From assembly GCA_009787835.1 (NCBI GenBank), contig WQSN01000033.1, positions 1 through 33,260 on the forward strand: a stretch of 33,260 nt of DNA, in the 5' to 3' direction. A program made the position numbers and the translations under genes. The DNA comes from Treponema sp. GTDB lineage: Bacteria > Spirochaetota > Spirochaetia > Treponematales > Breznakiellaceae. The stretch's first letter is position 1. Each line of letters opens with the position of its first letter. Of the stretch, positions 8,605-33,260 are shown piece after piece. The notes below the pieces were generated by a model. It saw nothing but the letters and a program-made list of their open reading frames with translations. It ran no database searches and had not been told where the DNA came from.

Positions 8605-8633
8605 TTGACAAACCAAAATTAATATAATAAAAT
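8605..8633 (+). promoter_or_regulatory. Candidate promoter of the aldobionate/gluconate-type catabolic operon
   Basis: TTGACA (8605-8610), 17-base spacer, TAAAAT (8628-8633). The predicted transcript start near 8640 coincides with the palindrome at 8641-8651. It is the only good promoter I see before the 8684-18520 gene series. No gene is evident in 8466-8683. Confidence 0.6.
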
Positions 8634-8640
8634 TATCTGG

Positions 8641-8651
8641 CTGTAATACAG
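8641..8651 (+). promoter_or_regulatory. Palindromic operator candidate CTGTAATACAG
   Basis: Perfect 11-bp palindrome CTGTA-A-TACAG placed about 7 bases after the -10, at the expected transcript start. FadR-type GntR regulators bind short sites with a GT-N3-AC core (consensus TNGTNNNACNA); this site keeps GT-AAT-AC and differs at the outermost base on each side. The regulator encoded at 9503-10219 is the obvious candidate; binding is inferred. Confidence 0.5.
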
Positions 8652-8683
8652 GTAGACAGGTTAACAGCGCTGAAGGAGCCATT

Positions 8684-9499
8684 ATGCCGGTGTCCATTGC
8701 TCAAAATCTGGAAAAATTATTCTCCCTTGAAAATAAAGTTATATTACTCACAGGCGCAGCGGGTGGAATTGGTAAAGCACTGGCTGAAGGTTTCGCGGCG
8801 GCGGGAGCAAAAATGGCTTTATGCGACCTGGATAAAGCTAAACTGGAAACCATTGCTGACGGAATTAAGGCCAATGGCGGGACTGCGGGTTGTTATCATC
8901 TGGATCTGGTTGAGATGGACAGCATTAAAAAATGTGTAGATACGGTGATAGCCGAATACAGCCGCATTGATGTGCTGGTAAACTGCGCCGGAATCAATGT
9001 ACGCGAAGGTTTTCTGGATGTCGAGGAATCAACCTACGACAGGATAATGAACATCAATCTTAAAGGTTTATATTTTATTTCTCAGGAAACCGCCATACAC
9101 ATGATAAAACAGAAGAAGGGAAATATTCTGAACATCGCCTCGCATAACTCTGTGGGGATGATGGGAGGGTGCAGCGTTTACGGCGCGAGTAAAAGCGCTG
9201 TAGCCGCTTTAACGCGGAGTATGGCCATTGAATGGGCCAAGCATGGAATTCGCGCGAACGCTCTGGCGCCGGGCCATATTCTAACAAGCCTTACCACTGT
9301 AACCTGGGAACATCCGCAGCGCAGCAAATATCTCCGCGAACGTATCGCAATGGAGCGACCCGGTAATCCGGAGGAACTGTTGGGTATCGCATTGATGCTG
9401 GTCTCCGATTCTTCGTCATATATAACCGGTTCCATGATGCATGTGGACGGCGGTTGTCTGGCCGGAGGTTCGCCCTGGCCGTATGATACCAGGTATTAA
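8684..9499 (+). CDS. Short-chain dehydrogenase/reductase, gluconate 5-dehydrogenase-like
   Basis: Classical SDR of 271 residues. TGAAGGIG at 23-30 is the cofactor loop, NCAG at 100-103, and the catalytic Ser153 (IASHNS), Tyr166 and Lys170 (YGASK) are present. An Asp at the end of strand 2 (D48, ALCDLD) favours NAD(H) over NADP(H). The overall pattern fits sugar-acid SDRs such as gluconate 5-dehydrogenase or KduD, which oxidise gluconate-type polyols to keto-acids. Start ATG has AAGGAG 6 bases upstream. It is the first gene of the operon, just downstream of the operator-like palindrome, and its stop is 3 bases before the GntR start. With the GH94 enzyme at the far end, gluconate is a plausible substrate; this is inference. 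Confidence 0.85.
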   Translation: MPVSIAQNLEKLFSLENKVILLTGAAGGIGKALAEGFAAAGAKMALCDLDKAKLETIADGIKANGGTAGCYHLDLVEMDSIKKCVDTVIAEYSRIDVLVNCAGINVREGFLDVEESTYDRIMNINLKGLYFISQETAIHMIKQKKGNILNIASHNSVGMMGGCSVYGASKSAVAALTRSMAIEWAKHGIRANALAPGHILTSLTTVTWEHPQRSKYLRERIAMERPGNPEELLGIALMLVSDSSSYITGSMMHVDGGCLAGGSPWPYDTRY

Positions 9500-9502
9500 A
9501 AT

Positions 9503-10219
9503 ATGAATATAAAACCAATTCGCCGCGTAAATGTAAGCGGCCAGGTATTTGAACAGATGAAAAGCCTGATACTTTCCGGTGATTGGGCGCCGGGTACGCG
9601 TCTGCCTTCAGAGAATAATCTTGCGGATCTTTTCAGCGTCAGCCGCATTACCATAAGGCAGGGTATTCACCGTCTGGTTGCGCTCGGTCTTGCGGAGACT
9701 CATCCCGGCGAAGGAACATATATCCGCACCCTGTCTCCGGGTCAGTCCATTTCGGGCTTAATGTCCGCAGCGTATTTAAGCGATGATGATATGTTCTCGG
9801 TGCTGGAATTCAGAAAAGCCATTGAAGGATATACCGCGGAGTTAGCCGCTCAAAAAGCAGAAGCTGACGATATAAAAAACCTGGAAATAATTTACGCAGA
9901 GATGGAACAAAAAAAAGGCGATGTGGAAGAATTTTCAGAAGCAGATTACCGTTTTCACTATGAATTGGCTGTCATCAGCCGCAATCCATTGATTTTGGAA
10001 AGCTACAATTTAATAGGAGATTTATTCCGTACCGCGATGAAACATATTGTGGAAAAACGCGGACATTCCCAGGGCCTTTATTATCACCGTTTAATACTGG
10101 ACAGTATTCGCTCTCAGGATGCGGATAAATGCCGCGTCTTCATGACTCAGCATATTGATAACACCTATGCCGATATGGCAGCGAGTATTGGTTCAGGGCA
10201 AACAGCGTCCGCCGCATGA
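9503..10219 (+). CDS. GntR-family regulator, FadR (FCD) subfamily
   Basis: 238-residue DNA-binding repressor/activator. The N-terminal winged helix-turn-helix (about 5-75) shows GTRLPSENNLADLFSVSR and ITIRQGIHRLVALGLAE. The C-terminal helical FCD ligand domain (about 85-225) shows FSVLEFRKAIEGYTAELAA, DYRFHYELAVISRNPLI and YYHRLILDSIRS...TQH, including the His/Asp residues that bind metal and carboxylate ligands in this domain. FCD regulators usually sense small organic acids such as gluconate-type molecules, which fits the locus. It starts 3 bases after the SDR stop (AGG 9 bases upstream), so translation is probably coupled. It probably acts on the palindrome at 8641-8651. Confidence 0.9.
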   Translation: MNIKPIRRVNVSGQVFEQMKSLILSGDWAPGTRLPSENNLADLFSVSRITIRQGIHRLVALGLAETHPGEGTYIRTLSPGQSISGLMSAAYLSDDDMFSVLEFRKAIEGYTAELAAQKAEADDIKNLEIIYAEMEQKKGDVEEFSEADYRFHYELAVISRNPLILESYNLIGDLFRTAMKHIVEKRGHSQGLYYHRLILDSIRSQDADKCRVFMTQHIDNTYADMAASIGSGQTASAA

Positions 10220-10240
10220 CCGCGGAGCAATTGGAGGTAT

Positions 10241-11092
10241 ATGAACACAAATGAGATAAAACTGCTTGCTGAAAAAATCCGACGCGATACTGTGCAGATG
10301 ATTGGCTGTAAAGGCCAGGCAGGTCATCTAGGCGGTTCATGTTCAAGCGCCGAAATTGTCGCGGCGCTCTTTGGCGACAGACTGCGTTTCAGACCTGAAG
10401 ATCCGAAATGGGAAGGACGCGATAAATTTATTTACAGTAAAGGTCACGCGGCAATTGCTCAGTATGCCGTCATGGCCGAAATGGGTTATTTCCCGCGCGA
10501 GGAACTCTGGAAAGTAAAAGCGCTTGGTTCAATGCTGCAGGGACATCCGGACCGGCTCAGAACGCCGGGTATAGAAGCGGGAACAGGCAGCCTCGGTCAG
10601 GGTTTAAGCATAGCGGCAGGCATGGCCTTAGCCATGAAACTGGACAAGCGTTATGAGAATAAAGTTTACTGCGTGATGGGCGACGGAGAAATGGCGGAAG
10701 GGCAGGTTTGGGAAGCAGCAATGGCCGCCGTCAATTTCAAACTGGACAATCTTACCGGCATTATAGATCGCAACGGGATGCAGGCCACAGGTTTCATTGA
10801 TGAGCGGTTCAACACCAATCCGCTGGCTGATAAATGGAGAGGCTTTGGGTGGCATGTCATTGAAATTGACGGCCATGATGTTGACGCAATCCTGGCTTCC
10901 TATGATGAAGCGGCAGGCATAAAGGGAAAACCAGCAGTTATCATCGCGAACACTGTTAAAGGAAAAGGAATCAGTTTTGCGGAAAAGCAGGCGGCTTTTC
11001 ACAACGGAACGCTGACAAAAGAACAATATGACAGCGCGTTAGCTGAAATTGATGAAAAAATCGCCGCGCTGTCACAGGGATTTAAGGATTAA
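10241..11092 (+). CDS. Transketolase, N-terminal (ThDP/pyrophosphate-binding) subunit
   Basis: First half of a split, two-gene transketolase (283 aa). His residues of the active-site channel are in AGHLGGSCSS (H29), SKGHAAIAQ (H69) and QGHPDR (H102). The thiamine diphosphate motif GDG at 147-149 is followed by DRNGMQ at 176-181 (Asn178 for Mg2+). GTGSLGQGLSIAAGMA at 114-129 is typical. GGAGG lies 4 bases before the ATG. Six bases separate it from the C-terminal subunit gene. Split transketolases embedded in sugar operons are usually dedicated catabolic enzymes rather than the housekeeping pentose phosphate enzyme. Its donor here is unknown; a keto-sugar acid is my best guess from context. Confidence 0.92.
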   Translation: MNTNEIKLLAEKIRRDTVQMIGCKGQAGHLGGSCSSAEIVAALFGDRLRFRPEDPKWEGRDKFIYSKGHAAIAQYAVMAEMGYFPREELWKVKALGSMLQGHPDRLRTPGIEAGTGSLGQGLSIAAGMALAMKLDKRYENKVYCVMGDGEMAEGQVWEAAMAAVNFKLDNLTGIIDRNGMQATGFIDERFNTNPLADKWRGFGWHVIEIDGHDVDAILASYDEAAGIKGKPAVIIANTVKGKGISFAEKQAAFHNGTLTKEQYDSALAEIDEKIAALSQGFKD

Positions 11093-11098
11093 AGATAT

Positions 11099-12022
11099 AT
11101 GGAAAAATACAGTCAGAGACTGGCGTACGGCGAAGCCATTGTAGCTCTTGGCGCGGAAAATCCCCGTATTGTGGCATTGGAAGCCGATCTTGGCAAATCC
11201 ACAATGTCAGCGATGTTTCAGGCGGCGTACCCTGACCGCTATTTTGAAATGGGTATCGCAGAAGCGAACATGATATCTACGGCGGCAGGGCTTGCGGCAT
11301 CAGGAAAAATCGCCTTTTGTTCATCTTTCGCGGTTTTCGCTTCCGGCCGCGCTTACGATCAAATCAGGCAGACAGTCGCAATCGGAAAATTAAATGTAAA
11401 AATATGCGGCTCTTCATGCGGTCTTTCCGACTTCGGGGACGGAAGCACTCATCAGGCGGTGGAAGACATCGCAATTATGACAGCCATTCCCAACATGACA
11501 GTATTTACTCCCGCAGACGCAAACGAAACGCGCCAGGCAGTACGCGCGGCTGCGGCCATTGAAGGACCCGTTTATATCCGCGTTGTACGCTGTGATGTGC
11601 CATCTTACACAAGCGGCGAATTTGTACCCGGTAAACTGAGCGTTATACGCCCGGGAACCGACGCTGCGATAATCGCTCACGGGATAATGATTGAGGCGGC
11701 AATGAACGCCGCTGACATTTTAAAAGAAAAGGGAATATCAGCGAAAGTGATCAATGCCGGAACAATGAAGCCATTTGATTCTGAAGGTGTAGTTGAATTG
11801 TCAAAACAGGTAAAGGCGGTTATCACCGTCGAAGATCACAGCCGCATCGGAGGTCTTGCGTCTAATACCGCAATGGCGCTGAGAAAAAGCGCAACACCGA
11901 TGGACTATGTCGCCATTGAAGATCACTTTGGGCAAAGCGCCCACAGCATGGGCGATCTTCTGGAGCATTACGGTCTTACCGCGAATGCGATTGTGGAAAA
12001 AACCGTTTCATTGCTGAAGTAA
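11099..12022 (+). CDS. Transketolase, C-terminal (pyrimidine-binding) subunit
   Basis: Second half of the split transketolase (307 aa). The catalytic glutamate that activates thiamine diphosphate is E55 in FEMGIAEANM. Next come the cofactor/subunit interface (CSSFAVFASGRAYDQIR), the GLSDFGDGSTHQAVEDIAIM loop (about 106-125) and a C-terminal ketoacid dehydrogenase-like domain from about 180 (PGTDAAIIAHGIM; INAGTMKPFD). AAGGA about 10 bases upstream of the ATG is the ribosome site. It must pair with the preceding subunit to form the active site. It ends 12 bases before garR. Confidence 0.92.
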   Translation: MEKYSQRLAYGEAIVALGAENPRIVALEADLGKSTMSAMFQAAYPDRYFEMGIAEANMISTAAGLAASGKIAFCSSFAVFASGRAYDQIRQTVAIGKLNVKICGSSCGLSDFGDGSTHQAVEDIAIMTAIPNMTVFTPADANETRQAVRAAAAIEGPVYIRVVRCDVPSYTSGEFVPGKLSVIRPGTDAAIIAHGIMIEAAMNAADILKEKGISAKVINAGTMKPFDSEGVVELSKQVKAVITVEDHSRIGGLASNTAMALRKSATPMDYVAIEDHFGQSAHSMGDLLEHYGLTANAIVEKTVSLLK

Positions 12023-12034
12023 GGAGTAGCGTTT

Positions 12035-12919
12035 ATGAAAATAGGATTTATCGGTCTTGGCATTATGGGAAAGCCCATGGCAAAAAACCTACTGCGGGCA
12101 GGCCATCAGCTAACGGTTTTTGATATCGTAAAGGACGCAATGAATGATGTCGTAGCAGCGGGCGCCGCCGCCGCGGCTTCGGCGAAAGATGCGGCCCTTT
12201 CCAGCGAATACATCATAACAATGCTCCCCAATTCCCCGCATGTTAAAACCGCTGTGTTAGGTGAAAATGGAGCGCTGCAAGGCGCCAGAAGAGGCTGCGC
12301 GCTGATTGACATGTCTTCCATTGCCCCTGGCGCTTCGCAGGAAATAGCCGCGGAATGCGCGAAGGCGGGAGTAAGAATGCTTGACGCTCCGGTATCAGGA
12401 GGAGAACCCAAGGCCATTGACGGAACATTATCCATCATGGCGGGCGGCGACAAGGATCTGTTTGAAAGCGTTAAGGATAACATTCTGTTAAAAATGGGCG
12501 CATCCGCCGTTTACTGCGGCGGGATCGGCGCGGGCAACACCACAAAACTCGCCAATCAGATTATCGTTGCGTGTAACATCGCAGCGTTGGCTGAAGCGCT
12601 GACATTGGCGAAAAAGGCAGGCGTTGACCCCGGGCGCGTGTTTGAAGCAATCAAGGGCGGTTTGGCGGGATCAACCGTGATGAACGCAAAGACGCCAATG
12701 ATGCTCTCGGGCGATTTCAAACCGGGTTTTCGCATTGATCTTCATATTAAAGATCTGGCCAACGCGCTGGAAACCGGACACAGCGCCGCATCTCCCTTAC
12801 CACTTACTTCTTCGGTAATGGAGATGTTTCATGCGTTACGCGCAAGCGGCGCAGGACAGGATGATCACAGCGCACTTGCAAAATATTACGAGAAACTGTC
12901 CGGCGTAAAAATCAGTTAA
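12035..12919 (+). CDS. garR: 2-hydroxy-3-oxopropionate (tartronate semialdehyde) reductase-like, beta-hydroxyacid dehydrogenase family
   Basis: 294-residue NAD(P)-dependent reductase. The Rossmann motif GFIGLGIMGKPMAKNL is at the N-terminus, the substrate motif DAPVSGGEPKAIDGT at 117-131, and the catalytic Lys171 in GNTTKLANQ. IITMLPNSPHVK, DMSSIAPGAS, GGLAGSTVMNAK and FKPGFRIDLHIKDLANALE are very close, as I recall them, to E. coli GarR, closer than to 3-hydroxyisobutyrate dehydrogenase or YihU. The known reaction is tartronate semialdehyde to D-glycerate. AAGGAG lies about 10 bases before the ATG. No GarD, GarL, Gcl, Hyi or glycerate kinase gene is nearby, so the source and fate of the C3 acid are open; it might act on another aldehyde acid made by the transketolase. 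Confidence 0.88.
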   Translation: MKIGFIGLGIMGKPMAKNLLRAGHQLTVFDIVKDAMNDVVAAGAAAAASAKDAALSSEYIITMLPNSPHVKTAVLGENGALQGARRGCALIDMSSIAPGASQEIAAECAKAGVRMLDAPVSGGEPKAIDGTLSIMAGGDKDLFESVKDNILLKMGASAVYCGGIGAGNTTKLANQIIVACNIAALAEALTLAKKAGVDPGRVFEAIKGGLAGSTVMNAKTPMMLSGDFKPGFRIDLHIKDLANALETGHSAASPLPLTSSVMEMFHALRASGAGQDDHSALAKYYEKLSGVKIS

Positions 12920-12940
12920 AAGACCCTTTAGGGTTTTTAA
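12919..12940 (+). terminator. Weak intrinsic terminator/attenuator between garR and the ABC genes
   Basis: Stem of 8 pairs (AAAGACCC / GGGTTTTT with one G-T pair) around a TTTA tetraloop at 12927-12930. The T-run forms the 3' arm. There is little room for a new promoter before 12966, so it probably tunes the ratio of enzyme to transporter mRNA. Confidence 0.5.
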
Positions 12941-12965
12941 TAAATGCATTTCAGGAGGAAAGGAA

Positions 12966-14249
12966 ATGAAAAAAATCATCGTTTTTGTTCTGCTGGTATG
13001 TTTGACTCTGCCGGTATTCGCCAGAGGTTCAAGCGAGCAGGAGCAGGGTCAGGTTACCCTGCGGTTCTCATGGTGGGGCACTGACGCGCGCCATGAAGCC
13101 ACGTTAGCTGCCATTGCGGCATTTGAAAGGGCCTACCCAAACATCAAAATTGAACCTGAATACGGAGCGCAGGCCGGTTATAACGAGAAAAAAACAACAG
13201 AGTTCGCATCAAGAACCGCGCCGGATATCATGCAAATAGAAACCGGAGCCGGTCCGGAATATTACAGGCTTGGCGTACTCAGAAACCTCTCGCAGCTTCG
13301 TTCAATCAGTTTTGAAAAGTTTGATCCGGGTTTTCTGCAAAGGAACGGCCAGTTCGGTTCAGGCAGCCAGTGGACAATCCCGACCGGCGTAGCTGGATCC
13401 GCGGTTATCGTAAATAAAACATTGGCTGACAGACTTGGTATTGATTTTTCAAGGCCGTATGACTGGGAACAGCTTATCACATGGGGCCAGCAGGTAAGAG
13501 CTGCCGATCCGACATGTTACCTGTTATCAGTCAATACCAATGACGGAACGGATTTCTTTGTCCGCGCTTATGCCCGTCAGCTTAACGGCGCTGCCATCAT
13601 CGACGATGCGAACAAACGCCTAAATATGACCGAAGCGCAGTTTACGCAATGCTTTGATTTCATCCGCAGATTGTATGAGTCAGGAACCGCTGCGCCTGCC
13701 GCGTACAAAGCGCCGTTCGGCGATCAGGATCAAAATGATCCTAACTGGATTGCCGGCAAGTATGTCGCGTCAATTGGTTTCACTTCAAGAGCCGCCCCTC
13801 TGCAGGCCGGCAACCGTAATGTTCAGTATATGGCAGGACGTTTGCCGTTATTGGCAAACCGCAGGAGTGACGGATGGTTTAACGACTGCCCTCAGTACAT
13901 GGGCATTTACGCCGGAACAAGATATCCTGAACAAGCCGCAACATTCCTGAATTTCTTCTTTAACTCGGAAGAAGCCGCAAGGCTGCTCGGTACAGTAAGA
14001 ACAGTACCGCCTACAAAAATGGCGCAGGATATTGTGACAGCTAACGGAACTCTTGACAGAGTTACGGCAGAGGCGACAACAATAAGCCTTTCATACAACG
14101 GCCAGAGCGACGGCGGATACACCACAGCCGGAGAAGTCCAGGCAATTTTAAGAAACGCCTTTGAGCAGGTTTCATACGGGAGCGCAACTCCGGCTGTAGC
14201 AGCCAGAAATGTAGTTACCCAGCTCAATGATTTTCTTTTACGGCAATAG
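12966..14249 (+). CDS. CUT1 ABC transporter extracellular sugar-binding protein
   Basis: 427 residues, solute-binding protein family 1. A signal peptide (MKKIIVFVLLVCLTLPVFA, cut before RGSS) has no lipobox Cys, so the mature protein is probably periplasmic. The fold starts with VTLRFSWWGTDARHEATLAAI and FERAYPNIKIEPEYG, both typical of oligosaccharide-binding proteins. TAPDIMQIETGAGPEYYRLGVLRNLS and GSAVIVNKTLADRLGI continue the pattern. CAGGAGGAAAGG precedes the ATG. It is the first gene of the transporter half of the operon and is followed by a long hairpin. It should deliver the substrate later cut by the GH94 enzyme. Confidence 0.92.
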   Translation: MKKIIVFVLLVCLTLPVFARGSSEQEQGQVTLRFSWWGTDARHEATLAAIAAFERAYPNIKIEPEYGAQAGYNEKKTTEFASRTAPDIMQIETGAGPEYYRLGVLRNLSQLRSISFEKFDPGFLQRNGQFGSGSQWTIPTGVAGSAVIVNKTLADRLGIDFSRPYDWEQLITWGQQVRAADPTCYLLSVNTNDGTDFFVRAYARQLNGAAIIDDANKRLNMTEAQFTQCFDFIRRLYESGTAAPAAYKAPFGDQDQNDPNWIAGKYVASIGFTSRAAPLQAGNRNVQYMAGRLPLLANRRSDGWFNDCPQYMGIYAGTRYPEQAATFLNFFFNSEEAARLLGTVRTVPPTKMAQDIVTANGTLDRVTAEATTISLSYNGQSDGGYTTAGEVQAILRNAFEQVSYGSATPAVAARNVVTQLNDFLLRQ

Positions 14250-14266
14250 TTTATTTATTTTAATAA

Positions 14267-14319
14267 CAACCGGTATACGGGATGGAGTGTCAGCTAACAC
14301 TCCCCCGCATACCGGCGTT
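14267..14319 (+). other. Long intercistronic hairpin between binding protein and permease genes
   Basis: Interrupted stem of about 20 pairs: CCGGTAT (14270-14276) with ATACCGG (14309-14315), CGGG (14278-14281) with CCCG (14304-14307), GGAGTGT (14284-14290) with ACACTCC (14297-14303); loop CAGCTA. No U-tract follows. It probably protects the upstream message and gives excess binding protein over permease, like the hairpins at 91-180. Confidence 0.7.
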
Positions 14320-14342
14320 ATGGAAACCCGGAGGAAGCTGTA

Positions 14343-15233
14343 ATGAGTGGCAGAAGCCTGGACAGACGGAACAATATCGCGTACCTGTATTTATTGCCGT
14401 GGTTAATCGGAATATTGGGATTACAGATGTATCCGTTTATTGTTTCATTTTACTACGCTCTTTGCGATTATAATCCGCTTATATCTCCCAGATTTAACGG
14501 TTTAGACAACTTTAATAGACTTTTTACAAGAGACCCGGAGTTTTGGATATCGCTTAAAGTAACATTGCTTTATGTGATCTACACAGTGCCTCTAAAACTT
14601 ATCATGTCTCTTTTTATCGCTGTACTGCTTAACAGATCCAGAAAAGGAATCGGCGCGTTACGCACCGCGTACTACCTTCCATCTTTATTCGGAGGAAGCG
14701 TAGCGATCGCCGTTCTCTGGCGAATTATGTTTATGGATTACGGAATGGTTAACGCCTTTTTAAACTCTATAGGCATTTCTACCATTTCATTTTTGGGAGA
14801 TCCCAGAACAGCCCTTCCCACGCTGAGCCTATTGGAAGTATGGCAGTTTGGATCCTCAATGGTCATGTTTCTCGCCGCGCTGAAACAGGTGCCGTCCACC
14901 CTGTATGAAGCGGCGATCATTGACGGGGCAGGCAGCGCGAAAAGGTTTTTCAAGATTACGATGCCCTATATCTCTCCCATCCTTTTCTTCTGCATAATCA
15001 TGCAGACGTTAAACGCCATGCAGAATTTTACTTCGGTCTTTGTCATAACAAGGGGAGGGCCGATGAAATCCACATATATGCTCGGACTGAAACTTTATAA
15101 TGACGGGTTTCATTACATGAGAATGGGATACGCGAGCGCTACATCATGGATAATATTTACCATAATAGCGCTTTTTACTTTATTATTGTTTACCAGTCAA
15201 AAATACTGGGTTTTCTACAGCGATGACAATTAA
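14343..15233 (+). CDS. CUT1 ABC transporter permease (UgpA/LacF/MalF type)
   Basis: 296 residues, about six transmembrane helices. The N-terminus AYLYLLPWLIGILGLQMYPF is the usual first helix of this class. LRTAYYLPSLFGGSVAIAV and the cytoplasmic EAA loop (YEAAIIDGAGSAKRFFKI, about residues 188-205), which docks the ATPase, are clear. GGAGG lies 9 bases before ATG 14343. It pairs with the permease at 15248. No ATPase gene is present in the locus, so a shared MsmX/UgpC-type ATPase encoded elsewhere must serve it, as is common for CUT1 systems. Confidence 0.93.
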   Translation: MSGRSLDRRNNIAYLYLLPWLIGILGLQMYPFIVSFYYALCDYNPLISPRFNGLDNFNRLFTRDPEFWISLKVTLLYVIYTVPLKLIMSLFIAVLLNRSRKGIGALRTAYYLPSLFGGSVAIAVLWRIMFMDYGMVNAFLNSIGISTISFLGDPRTALPTLSLLEVWQFGSSMVMFLAALKQVPSTLYEAAIIDGAGSAKRFFKITMPYISPILFFCIIMQTLNAMQNFTSVFVITRGGPMKSTYMLGLKLYNDGFHYMRMGYASATSWIIFTIIALFTLLLFTSQKYWVFYSDDN

Positions 15234-15247
15234 GACAAGGATGTAAC

Positions 15248-16096
15248 ATGATGATTTTTACTAAAAAGACTTTAAAAGAAATATTTTCATACACCGTTTT
15301 AATCATTATTGCGTTCTTTCTGTGTTACCCCCTGCTGTGGATGTTTTTTGCGAGTTTTAAAACAAACGCCGAAATATATACCGGAGTCAGTTTATTTCCG
15401 CAGGAAATAAATTTTGACGCGTTTCGCGACGGCTGGAAAGGAGTCGCAGGCAATACCTTTACAAAATTCTTCGGCAACTCGTTTTTGCTTGTAATACCGA
15501 CAGCTTTATTTACAATAATATCAAGCACGCTAGTAGCGTATGGTTTCGCCCGTTTTGAATTTAAAGGGAAGAAAATTCTATTTATTGTTCTGCTCTCAAC
15601 GCTCATGCTTCCCAATTCCATACTGATTATTCCCCGTTATACGATATTCCGCACATTAAGCGCGCTTGACAGCTACACCCCGTTCTATCTGATGTCAATT
15701 TTCGCTTGTTACCCGTTCTTTACCTATATGCTTGTGCAATTTATACGCGGAATCCCGAAGGAACTTGATGAATCTGCGCTAATGGACGGCTGCGGCTCGT
15801 TCAGGACTCTTATAAGCATTCTATTGCCGCTATTAAAACCGGCCCTGTTTTCCGCGGGGCTTTTCCAGTTCTTATGGACATATAATGACTATTTTAATTC
15901 CCTGATTTACATTAACAGCGTTAAAAAATTTCCCGTATCCCTTGCTTTGCGGCTAACGCTCGACGCAGACGCGATTATAATCTGGAAAAATGTCATGGCC
16001 ATGTCTTCCCTTGCAGTGCTGCCTGTTGTCATATTATTCTTCCTCTGCCAGAAATACTTTGTCGAAGGCATCGCCACAACCGGTTTAAAGGGTTGA
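15248..16096 (+). CDS. CUT1 ABC transporter permease (UgpE/LacG/MalG type)
   Basis: 282 residues with about six transmembrane helices. Features of the class: FFLCYPLLWMFFASFKTNAE at the N-terminus, STLVAYGFARFEFKGKK, STLMLPNSILIIPRYTIF, and the EAA loop PKELDESALMDGCGSFRTLI (about residues 173-192). The C-terminus ending ...YFVEGIATTGLKG is typical. AAGGA lies 6 bases before the ATG, 14 bases after the first permease. Together the two permeases form the membrane channel for the sugar (probably an oligosaccharide or aldobionic acid). Confidence 0.93.
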   Translation: MMIFTKKTLKEIFSYTVLIIIAFFLCYPLLWMFFASFKTNAEIYTGVSLFPQEINFDAFRDGWKGVAGNTFTKFFGNSFLLVIPTALFTIISSTLVAYGFARFEFKGKKILFIVLLSTLMLPNSILIIPRYTIFRTLSALDSYTPFYLMSIFACYPFFTYMLVQFIRGIPKELDESALMDGCGSFRTLISILLPLLKPALFSAGLFQFLWTYNDYFNSLIYINSVKKFPVSLALRLTLDADAIIIWKNVMAMSSLAVLPVVILFFLCQKYFVEGIATTGLKG

Positions 16097-16159
16097 ACTG
16101 AAGCTCAGGCTTCTGAACAGCCGCCTGAAAACATTTCACATAACAAAAGGGAGAAAAAT

Positions 16160-18520
16160 ATGATTTATACAAATACAGACGAATATTGCGAACTGACAGA
16201 TCCTGTCAGCGTGCCAAAAGCTTCCGGTTTTTTATGGAACGATACGATGATGATTCAGGCAACCTGCCGCGGTTACGCGACAGCGCGTTTTATGCAGCCT
16301 GAACCGACAAAATATTCCTGCGCGCCAACCATGGAAGCGAAAAATTTTATGGTTCCGGAACCTTCATATTACGCGCATCATCCCGGACGCTTTGTCTATG
16401 TAAAAGATGAAGATGAAAAAAAATTATTATTCTCTGCCCCTCATGAGCCTGTAAGGCGAAAACCTGAACGTTTCGCGTTTCAGGTCTGGAAACACAAACT
16501 AATCTGGATTACGGAATGTTGCGGCATTGAAGTGAATATGAGCCTGTTCCTTCCGAAGAGCGATTCTCTGGAATTATGGCGCATAACAGTAAAAAATCTT
16601 TCCGGCAGGAAGCGTAATTTAGGCGTTTATCCGTATTTTACAGTCGGTTATATGTCATGGATGAATCAGAGCGGAAGCTACAATGAAAAGCTGGGAGCGA
16701 TAGTATGTTCCTGCATAACTCCATATCAAAAATCAGAGGACTACCCAAAAATCAGGGAATTAAAGGATAAAACTTTTCTTTGGGCGAAGTATACTCCCGC
16801 CGCGTGGGAAACAAGCCTTGAGAATTTTGAAGGTGAAGGAGGGCTTTCTTCGCCTTCGGCTATAGCTCCTGAATACCTTTCCAAAGGAGACTGTCAATAT
16901 GAAATATTGGCAGCCATTATGCAATACAGGATTGAAATGCGCGCGGGAGAGGAAAAGGAATTTCAGTTTATTTTCGGTCCTGCGAAAGATGAGAATGAAA
17001 TCGCGTCTCTAATCAATCGTTATAAAGATAATTTTGACGCCGCCGAAAGCGAATACGCCTCCTATATTAAACAGGGACGCGGTGTTATGCAAATTACCAC
17101 AGAGGACAGGGGATTTGACTCTTTTGTAAACAACTGGCTGCCGAGGCAGGTTTTTTACCACGGAATAACAAACCGCATGTGCACCGATCCGCAGACGCGC
17201 AATTATATTCAGGACAGCATGGGCATGAGTTATATCATGCCACAAATGGCGCGTAACATGTTTTTACACGCGCTTGGACAGCAGAAGGAAAACGGAGAGA
17301 TGCCGGACGGGATTTTATTGACTCCTGACGCTGAACTGAAATACATCAACAAAATACCGCACAGCGATCACTGCGCATGGACGCCTATAGCTCTCGCATC
17401 CTATCTTGATGAAACCGGCGATTACGCGTTACTCGACGAAGAAGCCACTTTTGAAGGAGGAAAAAAGACCGCAAACGTGTCGCATCACATCGATATTATG
17501 ATGGATTGGCTGATAAATGACCGGGATGAAAGAGGCTTAAATTTTATCCGCCAGGGCGACTGGTGCGATCCCATGAACATGGTAGGTTATAAAGGCAAGG
17601 GCGTTTCAGGCTGGCTGACAATGGCAACATCTTACGCCCTGCGCTGCTGGGCCGCTATTTGCCGTGAAAACGGAAGGCTGGACGCAGCTGAACGTTATCT
17701 GACAATATCAGAAGAAATAAACGCGGCAATAAACCGCTGGCTGTGGGACGGCGAGTGGTATGCGCGCGGAATTACAGACGACGGCGTCCTGTTCGGCGTC
17801 AGCGAAGACAAAGAAGGAAAAATATTTCTTAACGCGCAGAGCTGGGCGATTCTGTGCGGCGCTGCGGATGATGATAAAAAACAAAAAATAATCAAGTCTG
17901 TTGAAAAATATCTCGAAACGCCATTCGGCGCGGAAATACTGACTCCGCCGTATACCGCAATGAGGGAAGACATTGGACGCGTTACACAAAAACAGCCAGG
18001 CGCGGTAGAAAACGGTTCTGTTTACAATCACGCGGCAATGTTTTATATATACGCTCTTTATACCGCCTGCGATTATGACAGCGCATTCAGGCTGTTACGC
18101 AAAATGCTGCCGGGTGAAAGCGATGAGGATATAATAAAGCGGGGACAGCTTCCGGTATTCATTCCGAACTACTACCGCGGGGCGTATAAACAAATGCCTC
18201 GCACAGCGGGACGCTCCAGCCACCTTTTCAATACCGGAGCTGTGTCCTGGTATTACCGAAGCCTTATTGACGGTTTGTTCGGTTTTCGCGGCGTAAAAGC
18301 CGGTTTAAGGATACATCCGAATTTACCGTCCCACTGGAAAGAAGCGTCTGTTATACGCTACTTCAGGGGTGCGGAGATTCACGCGGAAATCAAGCGCTGT
18401 AATACGCGGGAAATTACCGTATTATGTGACGGAAAACCTCTCGCGGGCGGAGTGTTAGCTGATATTATTGAAGGCAAAAGTTACTGCTTATTGGTAAATA
18501 TGCCTTTAAATGAAGCGTAA
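16160..18520 (+). CDS. GH94 glycoside phosphorylase, cellobionic acid phosphorylase-like
   Basis: 786-residue cytoplasmic inverting phosphorylase. The N-terminal beta-sandwich (about 1-280: SGFLWNDTMMIQATCRGYAT; YMSWMNQSGSYNEKLGAIVC; VTPYQK-like CITPYQK) is followed by a helical linker and an (alpha/alpha)6 catalytic barrel with NYIQDSMGMSYIMPQMAR, HSDHCAWTPIALASYLDETGD and GDWCDPMNMVGYKGKG. Asp470 (in GDWCD) is the predicted general acid. His624 and Thr692-Gly693 (NTGAVSWYY) match phosphate-binding positions. Length and motifs such as FMVPEPSYYAHHPGRFVY recall cellobionic acid phosphorylases (about 790 aa, giving glucose 1-phosphate and gluconate) more than cellobiose phosphorylases (about 810-820 aa), but that sub-call is from memory. 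GGGAG precedes the ATG. It ends the operon, and there is no signal peptide. Confidence 0.85.
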   Translation: MIYTNTDEYCELTDPVSVPKASGFLWNDTMMIQATCRGYATARFMQPEPTKYSCAPTMEAKNFMVPEPSYYAHHPGRFVYVKDEDEKKLLFSAPHEPVRRKPERFAFQVWKHKLIWITECCGIEVNMSLFLPKSDSLELWRITVKNLSGRKRNLGVYPYFTVGYMSWMNQSGSYNEKLGAIVCSCITPYQKSEDYPKIRELKDKTFLWAKYTPAAWETSLENFEGEGGLSSPSAIAPEYLSKGDCQYEILAAIMQYRIEMRAGEEKEFQFIFGPAKDENEIASLINRYKDNFDAAESEYASYIKQGRGVMQITTEDRGFDSFVNNWLPRQVFYHGITNRMCTDPQTRNYIQDSMGMSYIMPQMARNMFLHALGQQKENGEMPDGILLTPDAELKYINKIPHSDHCAWTPIALASYLDETGDYALLDEEATFEGGKKTANVSHHIDIMMDWLINDRDERGLNFIRQGDWCDPMNMVGYKGKGVSGWLTMATSYALRCWAAICRENGRLDAAERYLTISEEINAAINRWLWDGEWYARGITDDGVLFGVSEDKEGKIFLNAQSWAILCGAADDDKKQKIIKSVEKYLETPFGAEILTPPYTAMREDIGRVTQKQPGAVENGSVYNHAAMFYIYALYTACDYDSAFRLLRKMLPGESDEDIIKRGQLPVFIPNYYRGAYKQMPRTAGRSSHLFNTGAVSWYYRSLIDGLFGFRGVKAGLRIHPNLPSHWKEASVIRYFRGAEIHAEIKRCNTREITVLCDGKPLAGGVLADIIEGKSYCLLVNMPLNEA

Positions 18521-18727: not shown

Positions 18728-18755
18728 TTGACATTTTTGTTGAGAATGGTATAAT
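18728..18755 (+). promoter_or_regulatory. Consensus sigma-70 promoter of the 99-aa gene
   Basis: TTGACA (18728-18733), 16-base spacer, TATAAT (18750-18755): both hexamers are perfect. The gene starts 42 bases after the -10. The 277-bp gap 18521-18797 otherwise holds the palindrome at 18529, a weak ccgg hairpin at 18688-18704 and a doubtful minus-strand open frame. Confidence 0.8.
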
Positions 18756-18797: not shown

Positions 18798-19097
18798 ATG
18801 ATTAATGTAGAAGCAGAAGTTAATAAACACAAAAACATGAAAGACAAAGGCGAACTCGGATTAATAATTAGTGAGTACAAGAACCTTGCCTTGCAAAATT
18901 CAAGCAATATTGTCATGGCAGGGCAATTTAATATGGTAGCGCATAAGCTGCAGGAATTTTACGAAAAACTTCCTACGCCGGGTCTTAAAAAGATACCCGG
19001 CAACACTCAAGGCGGCGCGCAGACAAAAACTGCCAAGATATCCAAAGATGAAAAAGCAAAAATAAACGACGCGTGGAACAAAAGGGCAACGAAATAA
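18798..19097 (+). CDS. Small conserved hypothetical protein, 99 aa
   Basis: Lys-rich, soluble-looking protein with no signal peptide or membrane helix. A helical N-terminal half (about 5-60: KGELGLIISEYKNLALQNSS; MVAHKLQEFYEKL) is followed by a flexible Gly/Thr/Lys tail (GNTQGGAQTKTAKIS). I do not recognise the family. Expression is likely to be high: a perfect promoter lies at 18728-18755, and AAGGGG is 5-6 bases before the ATG. It stands alone on its strand and meets the DUF2259-like gene tail to tail with 9 bases between. Its small, helical, basic character is compatible with a nucleic-acid or protein-binding adaptor, but nothing proves it. Confidence 0.75.
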   Translation: MINVEAEVNKHKNMKDKGELGLIISEYKNLALQNSSNIVMAGQFNMVAHKLQEFYEKLPTPGLKKIPGNTQGGAQTKTAKISKDEKAKINDAWNKRATK

Positions 19098-28928: not shown

Positions 28929-31900
28929 TTAAGGCGCTGTAACAGTAAGTGTCGTTGGTCTGATATTCGTTTGAGTTGTCCAGTTTACTCTTGCGCCGGG
29001 AGAGTAAGTATCCGCTTCAACTAATCTAACCCAGCGATGTCTTCCAGGGTATATGGTATATAAATGCTTACTGGCTACCCAACCGCCGCGAGGGTATCTC
29101 CACATTCGCGGACCGTACTGCCATGCTTCATTTGCCTGGTCAACAGTGGGAGTGCCTGTGGCGGTAGCATTAAAATTTTCGCCTAAAATAACTTCGTTAT
29201 ATGTATTCACATTTATTTCCCATGTTACCCATCTCCAAATTTGCGCGTTAGCGATGGAATCTTCTCCTTGCGGTGAATTTCCCTGTACCCTTCTCATCGC
29301 CCTGACTCCAGCTCTTCCTCCCGAAGCGCTAAGCGCTTGATAATCATCATCCCATGTTAGCGGAAATCCGACAATTGATGATACACCTGGAGCGTCTCCT
29401 CCCCTAATCCATAAGGTATTACCAGTCATGGGCCGCCAGCCGATACTAGCTGTACCGCCGCTGGCGGCAAGTCCGTTCACATTTCTTAACTCATAAGTTA
29501 AAACAGAACGGAAGGCAACTTCTTCGGAATAACTGCTGTTTCTTGTAGTACCATCAGCTGTAACATGGCTTCTTGCGGCAATACGCAATGTATACCCGCT
29601 TTCATTAGTGTTACCTACAGTAAAATGAGGTCCTGCATCCGCTGTACCCGTTCCGGTAAAAATGTTATATGTCCTGACTCCTGTGGTTGTACTATCAGAT
29701 TCCGTGTTTCCTTCATCATTTATTACCGGCCTTATTAAAAGGTTTGCGCTGTTTGTGCCTGTATCAGCAAAAGTAATCATTGCGTCCGCCGCTCCTGAAT
29801 TTCTCCAGTTAGGACCTGCACCACTACCATGCCCATGGGCGTTAACATCACCTGTAACAGCAGCATGTTCATACCATCCGGCATTGTAACGTACAACGGA
29901 ACCCGGAGTTCGGCAGTCAAGACGCGCGGTTGTTTGTAAAACATTCGTAAAGAGTCCGCTCATCTGAGGAGTGCCGTTTGCGTTTCCTGCCGCGCGTGTT
30001 ATTTGATCCGCGTCAACTTTTTTATCAATCCTGATAAACGGCTTATTAATGCCTGATGTAATATAATTATAATCAATAGCCGCAGCGGGCCATGTGTAAC
30101 TTAAAGTATCCTGCACGGCATTTGGGGGAATATTTATTCTATATTCCGCTCCAAGAACGGCAAGAGCGTTTGAACCTGTTAATTTAATCCGCAAGGTATG
30201 ACCGTTAACAATTTCAATGTCTTGTGATGATAACGGTATAGTTACAATTTCCGCCTGATGGAAATCGTACGCCATTTTATTAATATCTGATGCCGCCACT
30301 GCATTGCTTGGTTCTACAATTGTTGACTCCGAATAATTTAATATAAACTTGGTACTTGTATCAGGAGCGGTTCCCGATAAGCCGTTTACTCCCCTCTTGT
30401 AAAATGTGTCAAAGTTAGTGATGCTTCTGTACTTTGAAGCCTGAGCCTCTGTCAGAACAGCGGGGAGTCTGTATTTCCGCAGGGTATCCGAATTCGTATT
30501 ATAAACTTGCGTAATGGTAATGTTTCCGCTTCCCTTGGAAATCGAGCGGGTAAAACGTAAATCGAAATACCCTGTCCATGCGTCATTAGCTGTTATTGTT
30601 GCAGGATTATCAGGAATAAATGTTGGAGTTGTAGCATCTATTACTTCAGCACCTGTTGAAAGATTAGCTCTTCTTAGCTCGCCTGTTTGAATAATTATGG
30701 CTTTGCGGTTACGCAGCCTGTTTACATTTGATAAATCAGTTGTATCGCCGGGGACATTTAATAAATTTGTTACTGACACTCCGCTTTGATCATCCGCGAA
30801 TATAGCCATTGATGTTACATCTAGAGGCACACCAGCGGGCGTGTTTTCATTATTATTAACAGAGTACGTAAACGAAATTGAATTTTGGTTATTCACATGA
30901 GCAGCAGCTTGAACAGTTCTTGATGGCGTTACATTAAGAGTCAAAGTCGGCAATGTTCCGCTTGTTGTAATATTCTCCCTAAAATAAACAGTAATGTTTA
31001 CATTGTCCTGCCTTGCTACAGCGCCCGTTAAACCGTTATTTGTATAAATTCCGTTAGCTGAAGTGGAATCTATTCGTGTGACAAGCTCTCCGGGATTCCA
31101 GGTGAAAGGAGCAATTGATGTTTCTTCGGATACATTCCCGGCTTTGTCAACCTGTCTTGCCTTTACAGTATAAGAACCGCTGCTTGCAAGCTGTACATTC
31201 ACAGGATGCGTTTCAGATGAAGCCCAGCTTACGCCGTTATTTGTTGTATATTCTATTCTTGATAAATGTGCGTTTCCTGTATGACTCGTGTCAATATGAA
31301 TATAAACAGAGCTGTTATATAAATTCACTGTTACAGGATCTATTTCATTGACGGAAGGAGCTGTTCCACTGTAGATTTGAATAAAAGGGAATCCGGGTGG
31401 TGTATTATCAAGATGTACTCCGGGAATAATATGTTCAAACGCAGTAAGAGCTGTTCCGGGAATATCTGTTATTGTGCCGCCGTAACTTGTTATTTTCAAA
31501 TTCTCTTCATCATCACCTGATTGCACAGTGTACTTGAATGTTATAGCGTTATTATTAAGCCTAACATCCGCGGCATTGCTACTTGTTCTCCCGCCGGTAT
31601 TAAGATTTAAATATGGCAGGTCTGTAGAAACTATTTTAACATTTTTATTAAAAGTAACAGTAATAAATATTTCTTTACCGGCGCGATGCCAGCCAGTAGG
31701 ATTGACGGTTACGCCTGATACACCAGGCGCTGTTGTATCAATAATAATTTCTTTTCCTGAGACAAGAGAGCTATTGTCAGACGCAACCGGCAAAGGAGCA
31801 TAAACTGCTTTATCCGTGTTAGATAAACTACTGTATGTACTTTGCGTAACAATCCGCATATCCTCTGTAACTTCAACATTATCTATCGATTGCTTGAACT

Positions 31901-33260
31901 GCCATCTAAAAGGATAATTATTTGAATCCCAACCGGTATCTGCGTTAGTTTCTCCACCATTTACAGAGAGTCCTGTTACATTCAGAAAATTTTCTGGCAA
32001 GTTCGTAGTTTTATGGTTTTCTCCAACTATATAAGTAAAATACTGACGGGAACTTTCTGTGCTTTGTGCTACTGCGTCTTTTCTCCCATAATAAGCTCTT
32101 CCTCCTGTATTCAAAATCAAAACAGGATCATTCGCTGTGCCTTTATTTAACGTAACAGGTTTGCTGAATTCCAGGAATAATTCAATTTCATCGCCTGCTT
32201 TATATGCCATATCCGGATCAGAACTGGAAATGCGAAGGAACCTGAGCGCGTCGCTTTCTATAAGCCATGAAGCGCCGAATTCAGCGGGGTTTCCTCCTAT
32301 ATCTTCTATCACCGCGTTAACAACAATAGTATCCTTTATGGCTGTTGTTAATAGAGGTCCGATTGTATCACTAAACGTACCCGTAACCGTAAATGTACCT
32401 TGCGTATTATTTCCGGCTGCGGTGCTTATATCATTTGGACCGATATTTAACTGGTTACCGTTAACGCTTATTTTTATACTCGGATACAGATAGCGCTGAA
32501 CATTTAAATATTCGGTTGAGTCTTCTTTCCAACTGCCTGTAATTATTATTCGATCATTTTCCTCAAATTTGGGAATTAACGCGTATTCTCCCGGGATACA
32601 TTCCTTTTGAACTTCAGCGCCTCTCATAATTGTAACACTGTCAATTACAATTTCAGGCGGAAGCGTATCACCCTGCGGAGCGTAAGTAATTATTGTAGTT
32701 TTATTGTTTGGGTTTTCCGCTCTAAGCAAAAATATCTGGCTCTTTAAAGGCTGCCCGCCAATGCCAATAATTAACTCACCGTCAATATTTAACTCTTCGC
32801 CAATATTTAACTCATCATGCAGATGTATTCTCTGTGAATAGCTATAACGCTGTCTGTTTGTATCAGGATCTTCGCCCATAGGCGTTAAGGCAAGATTCCA
32901 CAATCTGTTTGGTTTAGATTCGTCATACGGGAAATTATTTCCGTACAGAGAAACATTTTTAACTTCTCCGGCTGAATGACCGGGTTGAAGTTCTTTTGCC
33001 ATTTCCCATCCTGCGTATTCCGGATCGCGGAAATACTGAAGCTGGCTCATCGCAGCAAAGTTTCTTGACTCAGGGTTAATCCACACCATTGTAAGCGATG
33101 TAATTTGCGTAGCGTCGCTTAACCTGCCGCTGATGGTAATTGAGTTATCACTGTTATTAATGTGCATGAACAACGGTTCTGTAGCTACAGGACTCGGCTG
33201 AACGGTAAAATCGGGATAGGTGATATCCTGCACCATAAAGAGGCTCTGCCATTCATCGCC
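28929..33260 (-). CDS. Giant Ig-like repeat surface/secreted protein, C-terminal 1443 residues (5' truncated)
   Basis: The frame is open to the right edge (GDEWQSLF precedes the first visible Met at 33236), so the true start is outside. The visible part is Asn/Thr/Ser-rich, beta-strand-rich and extracellular in character. Three related modules share a 'GD-ITVxF-KPV/NV-P-L-LNTGGR' pattern and a later FTYIVG/FKYTVQ/FTYSVN strand: KAGDEIELFLEFSKPV, RAGKEIFITVTFNKNV, RQDNVNITVYFRENIT. DNTPP and a Big/fibronectin-like module (RIEYTTNNGVSWASS; QVDKAGNVSEET) lie between. The last ~330 residues are different, Trp- and Arg-rich (GPRMWRYPRGGWV; YPGRHRWVRLVEAD), with no membrane helix or sorting motif, so anchoring must be by the missing N-terminus. 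Probably an adhesin or glycan-binding surface layer component. Confidence 0.75.
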   Translation of the reverse strand, partial: GDEWQSLFMVQDITYPDFTVQPSPVATEPLFMHINNSDNSITISGRLSDATQITSLTMVWINPESRNFAAMSQLQYFRDPEYAGWEMAKELQPGHSAGEVKNVSLYGNNFPYDESKPNRLWNLALTPMGEDPDTNRQRYSYSQRIHLHDELNIGEELNIDGELIIGIGGQPLKSQIFLLRAENPNNKTTIITYAPQGDTLPPEIVIDSVTIMRGAEVQKECIPGEYALIPKFEENDRIIITGSWKEDSTEYLNVQRYLYPSIKISVNGNQLNIGPNDISTAAGNNTQGTFTVTGTFSDTIGPLLTTAIKDTIVVNAVIEDIGGNPAEFGASWLIESDALRFLRISSSDPDMAYKAGDEIELFLEFSKPVTLNKGTANDPVLILNTGGRAYYGRKDAVAQSTESSRQYFTYIVGENHKTTNLPENFLNVTGLSVNGGETNADTGWDSNNYPFRWQFKQSIDNVEVTEDMRIVTQSTYSSLSNTDKAVYAPLPVASDNSSLVSGKEIIIDTTAPGVSGVTVNPTGWHRAGKEIFITVTFNKNVKIVSTDLPYLNLNTGGRTSSNAADVRLNNNAITFKYTVQSGDDEENLKITSYGGTITDIPGTALTAFEHIIPGVHLDNTPPGFPFIQIYSGTAPSVNEIDPVTVNLYNSSVYIHIDTSHTGNAHLSRIEYTTNNGVSWASSETHPVNVQLASSGSYTVKARQVDKAGNVSEETSIAPFTWNPGELVTRIDSTSANGIYTNNGLTGAVARQDNVNITVYFRENITTSGTLPTLTLNVTPSRTVQAAAHVNNQNSISFTYSVNNNENTPAGVPLDVTSMAIFADDQSGVSVTNLLNVPGDTTDLSNVNRLRNRKAIIIQTGELRRANLSTGAEVIDATTPTFIPDNPATITANDAWTGYFDLRFTRSISKGSGNITITQVYNTNSDTLRKYRLPAVLTEAQASKYRSITNFDTFYKRGVNGLSGTAPDTSTKFILNYSESTIVEPSNAVAASDINKMAYDFHQAEIVTIPLSSQDIEIVNGHTLRIKLTGSNALAVLGAEYRINIPPNAVQDTLSYTWPAAAIDYNYITSGINKPFIRIDKKVDADQITRAAGNANGTPQMSGLFTNVLQTTARLDCRTPGSVVRYNAGWYEHAAVTGDVNAHGHGSGAGPNWRNSGAADAMITFADTGTNSANLLIRPVINDEGNTESDSTTTGVRTYNIFTGTGTADAGPHFTVGNTNESGYTLRIAARSHVTADGTTRNSSYSEEVAFRSVLTYELRNVNGLAASGGTASIGWRPMTGNTLWIRGGDAPGVSSIVGFPLTWDDDYQALSASGGRAGVRAMRRVQGNSPQGEDSIANAQIWRWVTWEINVNTYNEVILGENFNATATGTPTVDQANEAWQYGPRMWRYPRGGWVASKHLYTIYPGRHRWVRLVEADTYSPGARVNWTTQTNIRPTTLTVTAP
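32766..32813 (-). repeat. 18-bp tandem repeat x3 in the surface protein gene
   Basis: Near-identical 12-mers AATA(A/T)TTAACTC at 32766-32777, 32784-32795 and 32802-32813 recur every 18 bases. They encode ELNIGE-ELNIDG-ELIIGI, a six-residue alternating acidic/hydrophobic repeat. Confidence 0.75.

Follow-up and report, generated by a model that had tools for sequence, protein, structure and literature searches.

A probable Treponema cellobionic acid phosphorylase operon with a GarR-linked split transketolase and a candidate route for clipping gluconate

The nine-gene operon and its phosphorylase

The stretch of DNA analyzed here, referred to as the window, comprises 33,260 nucleotides of a Treponema sp. 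genome (contig WQSN01000033.1, assembly GCA_009787835.1). It contains a series of nine open reading frames (ORFs) on one strand, 8684-18520 (+), with 3 to 93 bases between neighbors. They encode a short-chain dehydrogenase/reductase (SDR), a GntR/FCD regulator, the two subunits of a split transketolase (TKa and TKb), a reductase of the GarR type, three components of an ATP-binding cassette (ABC) importer and a phosphorylase of glycoside hydrolase family 94 (GH94). The series may be an operon for cellobionate, in which the SDR, the transketolase and GarR would together shorten gluconate by two carbons. Pfam and NCBIfam scans match the gene calls for all nine products (Table 1). An earlier sequence-only reading of the window had described an operon-like series of this content, and had pointed to D48 of the SDR and to a GDWCDPMN motif in GH94; these descriptions hold, D48 being readable in the sequence. 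The identical nine-gene order occurs in a second genome, the Treponema metagenome-assembled genome (MAG) L007 (Treponema sp. Co191P3bin16, genome G392), and the series is therefore more than chance. The window's host genome is available as a draft of 143 contigs totalling 3.08 Mb, with 96% completeness and 8.4% contamination.

Table 1 Features of the operon in window coordinates.
Feature	Position	Strand	Evidence
Promoter-like site, TTGACA-17-TAAAAT	8605..8633	+	11/12, consensus match only
SDR dehydrogenase, 271 aa	8684..9499	+	PF13561/PF00106
GntR/FCD regulator, 238 aa	9503..10219	+	PF00392, PF07729
Split transketolase thiamine diphosphate (ThDP)-binding subunit TKa, 283 aa	10241..11092	+	PF00456; nearest relative of solved structure 6yak, N-terminal component of a split transketolase
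Split transketolase pyrimidine-binding + C-terminal subunit TKb, 307 aa	11099..12022	+	PF02779/PF02780; 6yaj; motif RSFSR
GarR-type reductase, 294 aa	12035..12919	+	above NF008592 and TIGR01505 cut-offs; 1vpd
ABC sugar-binding protein, 427 aa	12966..14249	+	PF13416/PF01547
ABC permease A, 296 aa	14343..15233	+	PF00528
ABC permease B, 282 aa	15248..16096	+	PF00528
GH94 cellobionic acid phosphorylase (by similarity), 786 aa	16160..18520	+	PF17167/PF06165; 4zle

The GH94 protein resembles the cellobionic acid phosphorylase SdCBAP (PDB accession number 4zle) over its whole length with a score of 1037 bits, whereas none of the 19 further solved-structure sequences that matched exceeds 204 bits. It retains 274 of 294 near-invariant columns, defined as at least 98% conserved across 78 other clade members. 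The GDWCDPMN motif is present in 77 of these 78 and reads GDWNDPMN in the remaining one. Window residues R607, K611 and Q345 align with SdCBAP R609, K613 and Q347, respectively, of which R609 and K613 are presumably the acid-binding residues. SdCBAP position 188, where an Asn had been expected, is Pro in the alignment. Q347 is reported to lie near the ligand (PMC5309861), and cellobionic acid phosphorylases are also described from Xanthomonas and Neurospora (PMC8950772). In a tree of 23 of the 81 clade sequences and five paralogs from the window's own genome, with SdCBAP as the only characterized GH94 enzyme included, a branch with 100/100 support separates the window protein, SdCBAP and 21 sampled members from the five paralogs. 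By score, tree grouping and conserved columns, the window GH94 groups with cellobionic acid phosphorylase, as the sequence-only reading had proposed, and gluconate is therefore its expected product.

A search of genome contigs found 512 GH94 relatives, and neighborhoods were collected for the best 80, part of which lie on short contigs where missing neighbors mean little. Within the fetched stretches of these best 80 of 512 loci, the rest of the operon occurs in L007 only, where the GH94 is 75% identical. The same 80 stretches include a gluconokinase-like gene in 8 cases (the two such proteins scanned both pass the TIGR01313 cut-off) and an IlvD/Edd-type dehydratase gene in 5. Thus one GH94 group has varying neighbors possibly used for gluconate disposal, and in the window and L007 the SDR, transketolase and GarR genes stand in their place. 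At E 1e-120, this GH94 was found in only one of 392 sampled genomes of the window's phylum (Spirochaetota), its own. Contigs C51 and C57 (L003-L006) carry two further GH94 genes each, and each gene is closely copied on the other contig, which looks like duplication or mixed strains in the assembly.

A transketolase clade linked to GarR

TKa, TKb and GarR genes lie side by side in ten loci, the window and nine others, from two phyla. Four of the ten are in genomes of the phylum of Anaerocolumna, and a GntR-type gene accompanies the triad in all ten clusters. Conservation of the neighborhood, which the sequence-only reading had put forward as a check, is thus seen both in the nine-gene order of L007 and in the wider triad.

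Transketolases of Scheffersomyces and Carboxydothermus are described as orienting the substrate phosphate with the residues RSFHR, for which the sulfofructose enzyme has RAFDR (PMC11659671). These positions were mapped by E. coli numbering as R358, S385, F434, H461 and R520, and 64 of 66 loci had a TKb usable for comparison. All ten triad transketolases read RSFSR, the phosphate-contacting His (E. coli H461) being replaced by Ser; the window enzyme keeps both arginine positions and H473. Among the 54 other split transketolases the motif is RSFHR in 48, RAFHR in three, and RCFDR, RSASR and LSFHR in one each. A GarR gene lies within 1.5 kb of 10/10 RSFSR transketolases versus 0/54 of the others, most comparison loci having a flank of ~ 1.5 kb. 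The ten RSFSR enzymes form one clade with support 100/96 (99/99 with the first seven). The conserved triad and this separate clade support the proposal of the sequence-only reading that transketolase, dehydrogenase and GarR act in one pathway.

Split transketolases as such are widespread: in the window's phylum 156 of 296 genomes have a match (E 1e-40), in the Anaerocolumna phylum 220 of 398 (E 1e-78). The motif was checked in the 30 best loci of each survey, 28 of 30 giving a readable TKb in the Anaerocolumna phylum, and the RSFSR form was found in at least 5 of the 296 and at least 4 of the 398 genomes. No GarR-type gene was seen beside the transketolase in seven plasmid records examined of 226 that matched, one of the seven being without annotation, and the gene contexts differ among the seven. 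The other split transketolase of the window genome (contig C8, L097 8102-9879) carries RCFDR, close to the sulfofructose motif RAFDR; beyond it and the operon, PF00456 gave a single weak match there, 28 bits, on contig C13.

The triad is embedded in differing sets of genes. The complete genome of the named strain Anaerocolumna sedimenticola CBA3638 (G393, locus L119) carries ABC genes of high similarity together with a GH43 gene, GntR, TKa, TKb, GarR and SDR; its GH43 bears a beta-xylosidase C-terminal domain, and its own cellobionic acid phosphorylase lies ~ 50 kb from the triad. The GH43 ORF (L119 14325-15764) aligns with the Pfam profile only from position 51 onward, and its start looks cut or frameshifted. 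A 453-bit relative of this GH43 is found in a Eubacterium MAG (L054 4287-17648), together with a cellobionic acid phosphorylase and an IlvD-type dehydratase, after ABC transporter genes. G418 has SDR, ABC genes, an arabinofuranosidase, GntR, TKa, TKb and GarR. In G099 (L096) a divergent GntR gene is followed by TKa, TKb, GarR, SDR, genes of a tripartite ATP-independent periplasmic (TRAP) transporter, a TIM-barrel protein and a glycerate kinase (469 bits against a cut-off of 168). G111 and G228 combine a medium-chain dehydrogenase/reductase (MDR), another SDR, the triad and TRAP genes. The G212 cluster joins the triad to TRAP, TIM-barrel and UroD-like genes, and in G632 the triad, in the order GarR, TKa, TKb, is followed by SDR and a tripartite tricarboxylate transporter (TTT). 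In G500, TRAP genes and an MDR-type dehydrogenase accompany the triad, as do an FGGY kinase whose closest model is gluconokinase (561 bits, cut-off 649), a UroD-like gene and a 6-phosphogluconate dehydrogenase above its cut-off (428/271). The TRAP genes of L160, L161, L162 and L216 were called by their similarity to those of G099.

A glycoside-cleaving enzyme is present in all four triad loci with an ABC importer (GH94, GH94, GH43 and arabinofuranosidase), and none was recognized in the six TRAP or TTT clusters, in which a few neighbors were left unscanned (for example L215 7131-7490 and L216 16274-17359). Such a division is expected if the shared substrate is a free sugar acid, brought in by ABC importers as a glycoside. 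UroD/MtaA-like genes occur in two triad clusters (L162 7370-8587 and L216 5558-6628) and may connect the module with methylated sugar acids through a corrinoid methyltransferase.

The window GarR passes both tartronate semialdehyde reductase cut-offs, NF008592 with 458/397 bits and TIGR01505 with 403/341 bits, and aligns with the solved tartronate semialdehyde reductase 1vpd with 388 bits; it falls below the sulfolactaldehyde reductase cut-off (228/348). All ten triad GarR proteins exceed the NF008592 cut-off of 397, with 472 bits in L007, 497 in L119, 487 in L096, 455 in L160, 457 in L161, 474 in L162, 514 in L214, 421 in L215 and 526 in L216. The SDR just passes a generic glucose 1-dehydrogenase subfamily model (222/215 bits). 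Its relatives are 87% identical in G392, 61% in G393 and 59% in G099. As a marker, it matched only two genomes among 392 from the window's phylum at E 1e-55 and a single one among 398 from the Anaerocolumna phylum at 1e-60, the latter being G393 itself; five plasmid records matched, none above 41% identity. The SDR proved too variable for this purpose, and the transketolase was therefore used as the marker instead.

Gluconokinase, dehydratase and 2-keto-3-deoxygluconate (KDG) genes were not found among the nine operon genes by Pfam or NCBIfam. The sequence-only reading had noted the lack of a gluconate kinase; this is accurate for the operon, and no protein of the window genome exceeds the TIGR01313 or TIGR01314 cut-off, but six FGGY-kinase matches to the gluconokinase model exist there (best 170 bits, cut-off 649), among which a divergent gluconokinase is possible. 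In the wider set, TIGR01313 was exceeded in 0 of 4 genomes searched and TIGR01314 in 0 of 7. Glycerate kinase PF02595 was not found in the window genome, G392 or G393. A glycerate-kinase-family gene of type PF13660 is present in 4 of 7 genomes (window, G392, G393 and G212; not G099, G111 or G228); that of the window genome (L180) is located away from the operon and scores 264 against the glycerate 2-kinase cut-off of 550.

At the borders of the operon, the nearest large genes encode a D12-type DNA methyltransferase and a DUF2259 protein, both on the opposite strand. The sequence-only reading had assigned the operon a single good promoter. The site ahead of the first gene is indeed a close match, but a second promoter-like sequence with 12/12 matches lies at 18728-18755, just downstream of the operon. 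Sites with at least 9 matches number 29, versus 18.8 (sd 4.2) in shuffled sequences, and weak promoter matches therefore carry little meaning. The 12/12 site precedes a small + strand ORF of 99 aa (18798-19097) in an apparent intergenic gap. Elsewhere in the window, a minus strand ORF of 1435 aa (28929-33260), open at the window edge, has no Pfam match at E 0.001.

Proposed pathway and competing explanations

Starting from the gene content, the GH94 grouping, the conserved triad and the Ser-for-His461 clade, all of which are read from sequence, we infer the following route, including cellobionate import, every reaction after GH94, the acceptor and what becomes of the C4 acid. The ABC transporter would import cellobionate, and GH94 with phosphate would split it into glucose 1-phosphate and D-gluconate. 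The penultimate carbon is the site of action of SDRs related to gluconate 5-dehydrogenase. The SDR of the operon would oxidize C5 of gluconate, and the resulting 5-keto-D-gluconate would end in a CH2OH-CO-CHOH group, as donated by transketolase. The split transketolase would then hand the two-carbon ketol end over to a sugar phosphate, for example glyceraldehyde 3-phosphate, giving xylulose 5-phosphate and leaving a C4 aldehyde acid, tartaric semialdehyde. GarR would reduce the latter to L-threonate, the product expected by our stereochemical reasoning, and re-oxidize the NAD(P)H formed by the SDR. The net reaction would be gluconate + glyceraldehyde 3-phosphate to threonate + xylulose 5-phosphate, without ATP and redox-neutral provided that SDR and GarR share a cofactor. 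GarR, whose role the sequence-only reading had left unspecified, probably serves as the reductase for what the transketolase releases. In the relatives, the same logic of dehydrogenase, transketolase and GarR may be applied to other sugar acids.

As an overall explanation of the window, a cellobionate operon with gluconate clipping by SDR, transketolase and GarR has an evenly balanced chance of being correct. Several observations weigh against it. The SDR is below all gluconate 5-dehydrogenase cut-offs (198/408, 196/279 and 175/369 bits for gluconate 5-dehydrogenase/KduD-type models). GarR scores as a reductase of C3 tartronate semialdehyde, a model for the C4 substrate being non-existent, and the operon has no gene for threonate use. 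No dehydrogenase was recognized in the G212 triad cluster, and the only one in G500 is of the MDR type, for which threonine and inosose dehydrogenase models outscore L-idonate dehydrogenase. The ten triads belong to a single clade, so their agreement does not amount to ten independent events, and a Fisher value computed for the GarR linkage does not test for such events. The L118 enzyme likewise carries Ser at the His461 position, with no GarR gene, and Asp takes this place in the other split transketolase of the window genome; by itself, therefore, the residue does not prove the substrate. The GH43 of G393, the arabinofuranosidase of G418 and the in-cluster glycerate kinase of G099 suggest C5 acids and glycerate. 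All three IlvD-type dehydratases scanned near GH94 genes are nearest to the amino-acid dihydroxy-acid dehydratase and below cut-offs, and therefore may not act on gluconate. Finally, the window comes from a draft assembly with 8.4% contamination.

The alternative with the largest claim, although an unlikely one, is that the native substrate is a C5 aldonate such as xylonate or arabinonate. A 4-keto pentonate would yield tartronate semialdehyde, which GarR would reduce to D-glycerate for entry into glycolysis through glycerate kinase; for the window this would require either a pentonate as the GH94 product or a promiscuous module. The uniform passing of the tartronate semialdehyde reductase cut-off by the triad GarR proteins favors this alternative, as do the glycerate kinase of the G099 cluster, the beta-xylosidase-type GH43 and arabinofuranosidase noted above, and the PF13660 genes of four genomes, that of the window being distant from the operon. 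Against this, the window GH94 retains the columns of cellobionic acid phosphorylase, PF02595 glycerate kinase was not found in the window genome, G392 or G393, and gluconokinase-like and 6-phosphogluconate dehydrogenase genes stand beside the G500 triad. In addition, by our reasoning from Fischer projections, 5-keto-D-gluconate has the D-threo centers of known transketolase donors and 4-keto-D-xylonate and 4-keto-L-arabinonate do not, although an altered transketolase could depart from this preference. An ordinary pentose-phosphate transketolase that is co-regulated by chance, with SDR and GarR as separate steps and gluconate handled elsewhere, is improbable. The commonness of split transketolases, the retained arginine positions and H473, and the fact that no other RSFHR transketolase was seen in the window genome agree with such an enzyme, whereas its separate clade, the Ser at His461, the invariant GarR linkage and the presence of a second split transketolase in the genome do not.

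Two further explanations have far smaller chances. GH94 is a diverse family with five other places in this genome, and a specificity for cellobiose, chitobiose or 1,2-beta-oligoglucan, with no aldonate involved, might be considered; the gap in score between SdCBAP and the other solved structures, and the position of the five paralogs across the 100/100 branch, make this very improbable. A sulfoquinovose cluster whose reductase takes a sulfo-aldehyde as substrate is the least credible of all and close to negligible. The sulfoglycolytic transketolase (sulfo-TK) pathway is described with this anatomy, a split transketolase plus a reductase, in anaerobic spirochaetes and clostridia (PMC12890257), but the motif here is RSFSR and not RAFDR, GarR is under the sulfolactaldehyde reductase cut-off, GH94 is present, and no sulfoquinovosidase or sulfoquinovose isomerase was found among the nine genes by Pfam or NCBIfam.

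The gluconate-clipping interpretation can also be framed more broadly. The bare mechanism, with both C6 and C5 considered as the native acid, is about as probable as its opposite. We are more hesitant about its full form, a general ATP-free and redox-neutral clipping by a penultimate-carbon dehydrogenase, a Ser-461 transketolase and GarR that would serve C6 and C5 acids, perhaps repeatedly, in at least two phyla. The sequence-only reading had proposed C2-transfer catabolism of gluconate as new in a spirochaete. Its observation of the locus is confirmed and its interpretation partly supported: the triad supports the linkage, but the module occurs in at least two phyla and the chain length is also compatible with C5.

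Relation to known routes and implications

The nearest precedent is the sulfo-TK pathway. Its split transketolase SqwGH is described as acting on sulfofructose in strictly anaerobic clostridia and spirochaetes (PMC12890257). As in the pathway proposed here, a split transketolase takes a non-phosphorylated acidic ketose and passes C2 to glyceraldehyde 3-phosphate, and one described variant reduces the final aldehyde. The sulfo-TK pathway differs in handling a sulfonate, with RAFDR and SqwF, whereas the window would handle a carboxylate, with RSFSR, a GarR-type reductase and an initial oxidation. What is new is the subfamily of transketolases linked to GarR, in which the sulfo-TK idea would be applied to sugar carboxylates in varied form. 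An engineered E. coli transketolase, TKTA_M, is reported to convert 5-ketogluconate to tartaric semialdehyde, a route proposed in 2004 (PMC12016104); bond and product are the same, but that enzyme was engineered for production, whereas a dedicated catabolic module is proposed here. In E. coli, garD, garL and garK adjoin garR, whereas in the window the partner of GarR is a transketolase.

Gluconate dehydratase (GAD) is described as an anaerobic alternative to gluconokinase, with GAD clusters in gut Blautia, Enterocloster and others (PMC11424487). Both GAD and the gluconokinase/Entner-Doudoroff route dispose of gluconate, as the window operon would, but the operon lacks gluconokinase, dehydratase and KDG genes. 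In the available text of an account of anaerobic gluconate use, gluconokinase and dehydration routes are named and no transketolase (PMC5322786). Searches of the open-access literature returned no paper with both split transketolase and tartronate semialdehyde and, by title, no natural transketolase route for gluconate catabolism.

If correct, the proposed pathway would be a third gluconate route beside gluconokinase and gluconate dehydratase, and would allow oxidized fragments of cellulose and hemicellulose to be used without ATP outlay on the sugar acid. In the general form of the pathway, the aldonate produced by GarR would be two carbons shorter than the starting aldonate. A transketolase subfamily now annotated as plain transketolase would then be a sugar-acid enzyme, and the rule of RSFSR with an adjoining GarR gene is easy to look for in any genome.

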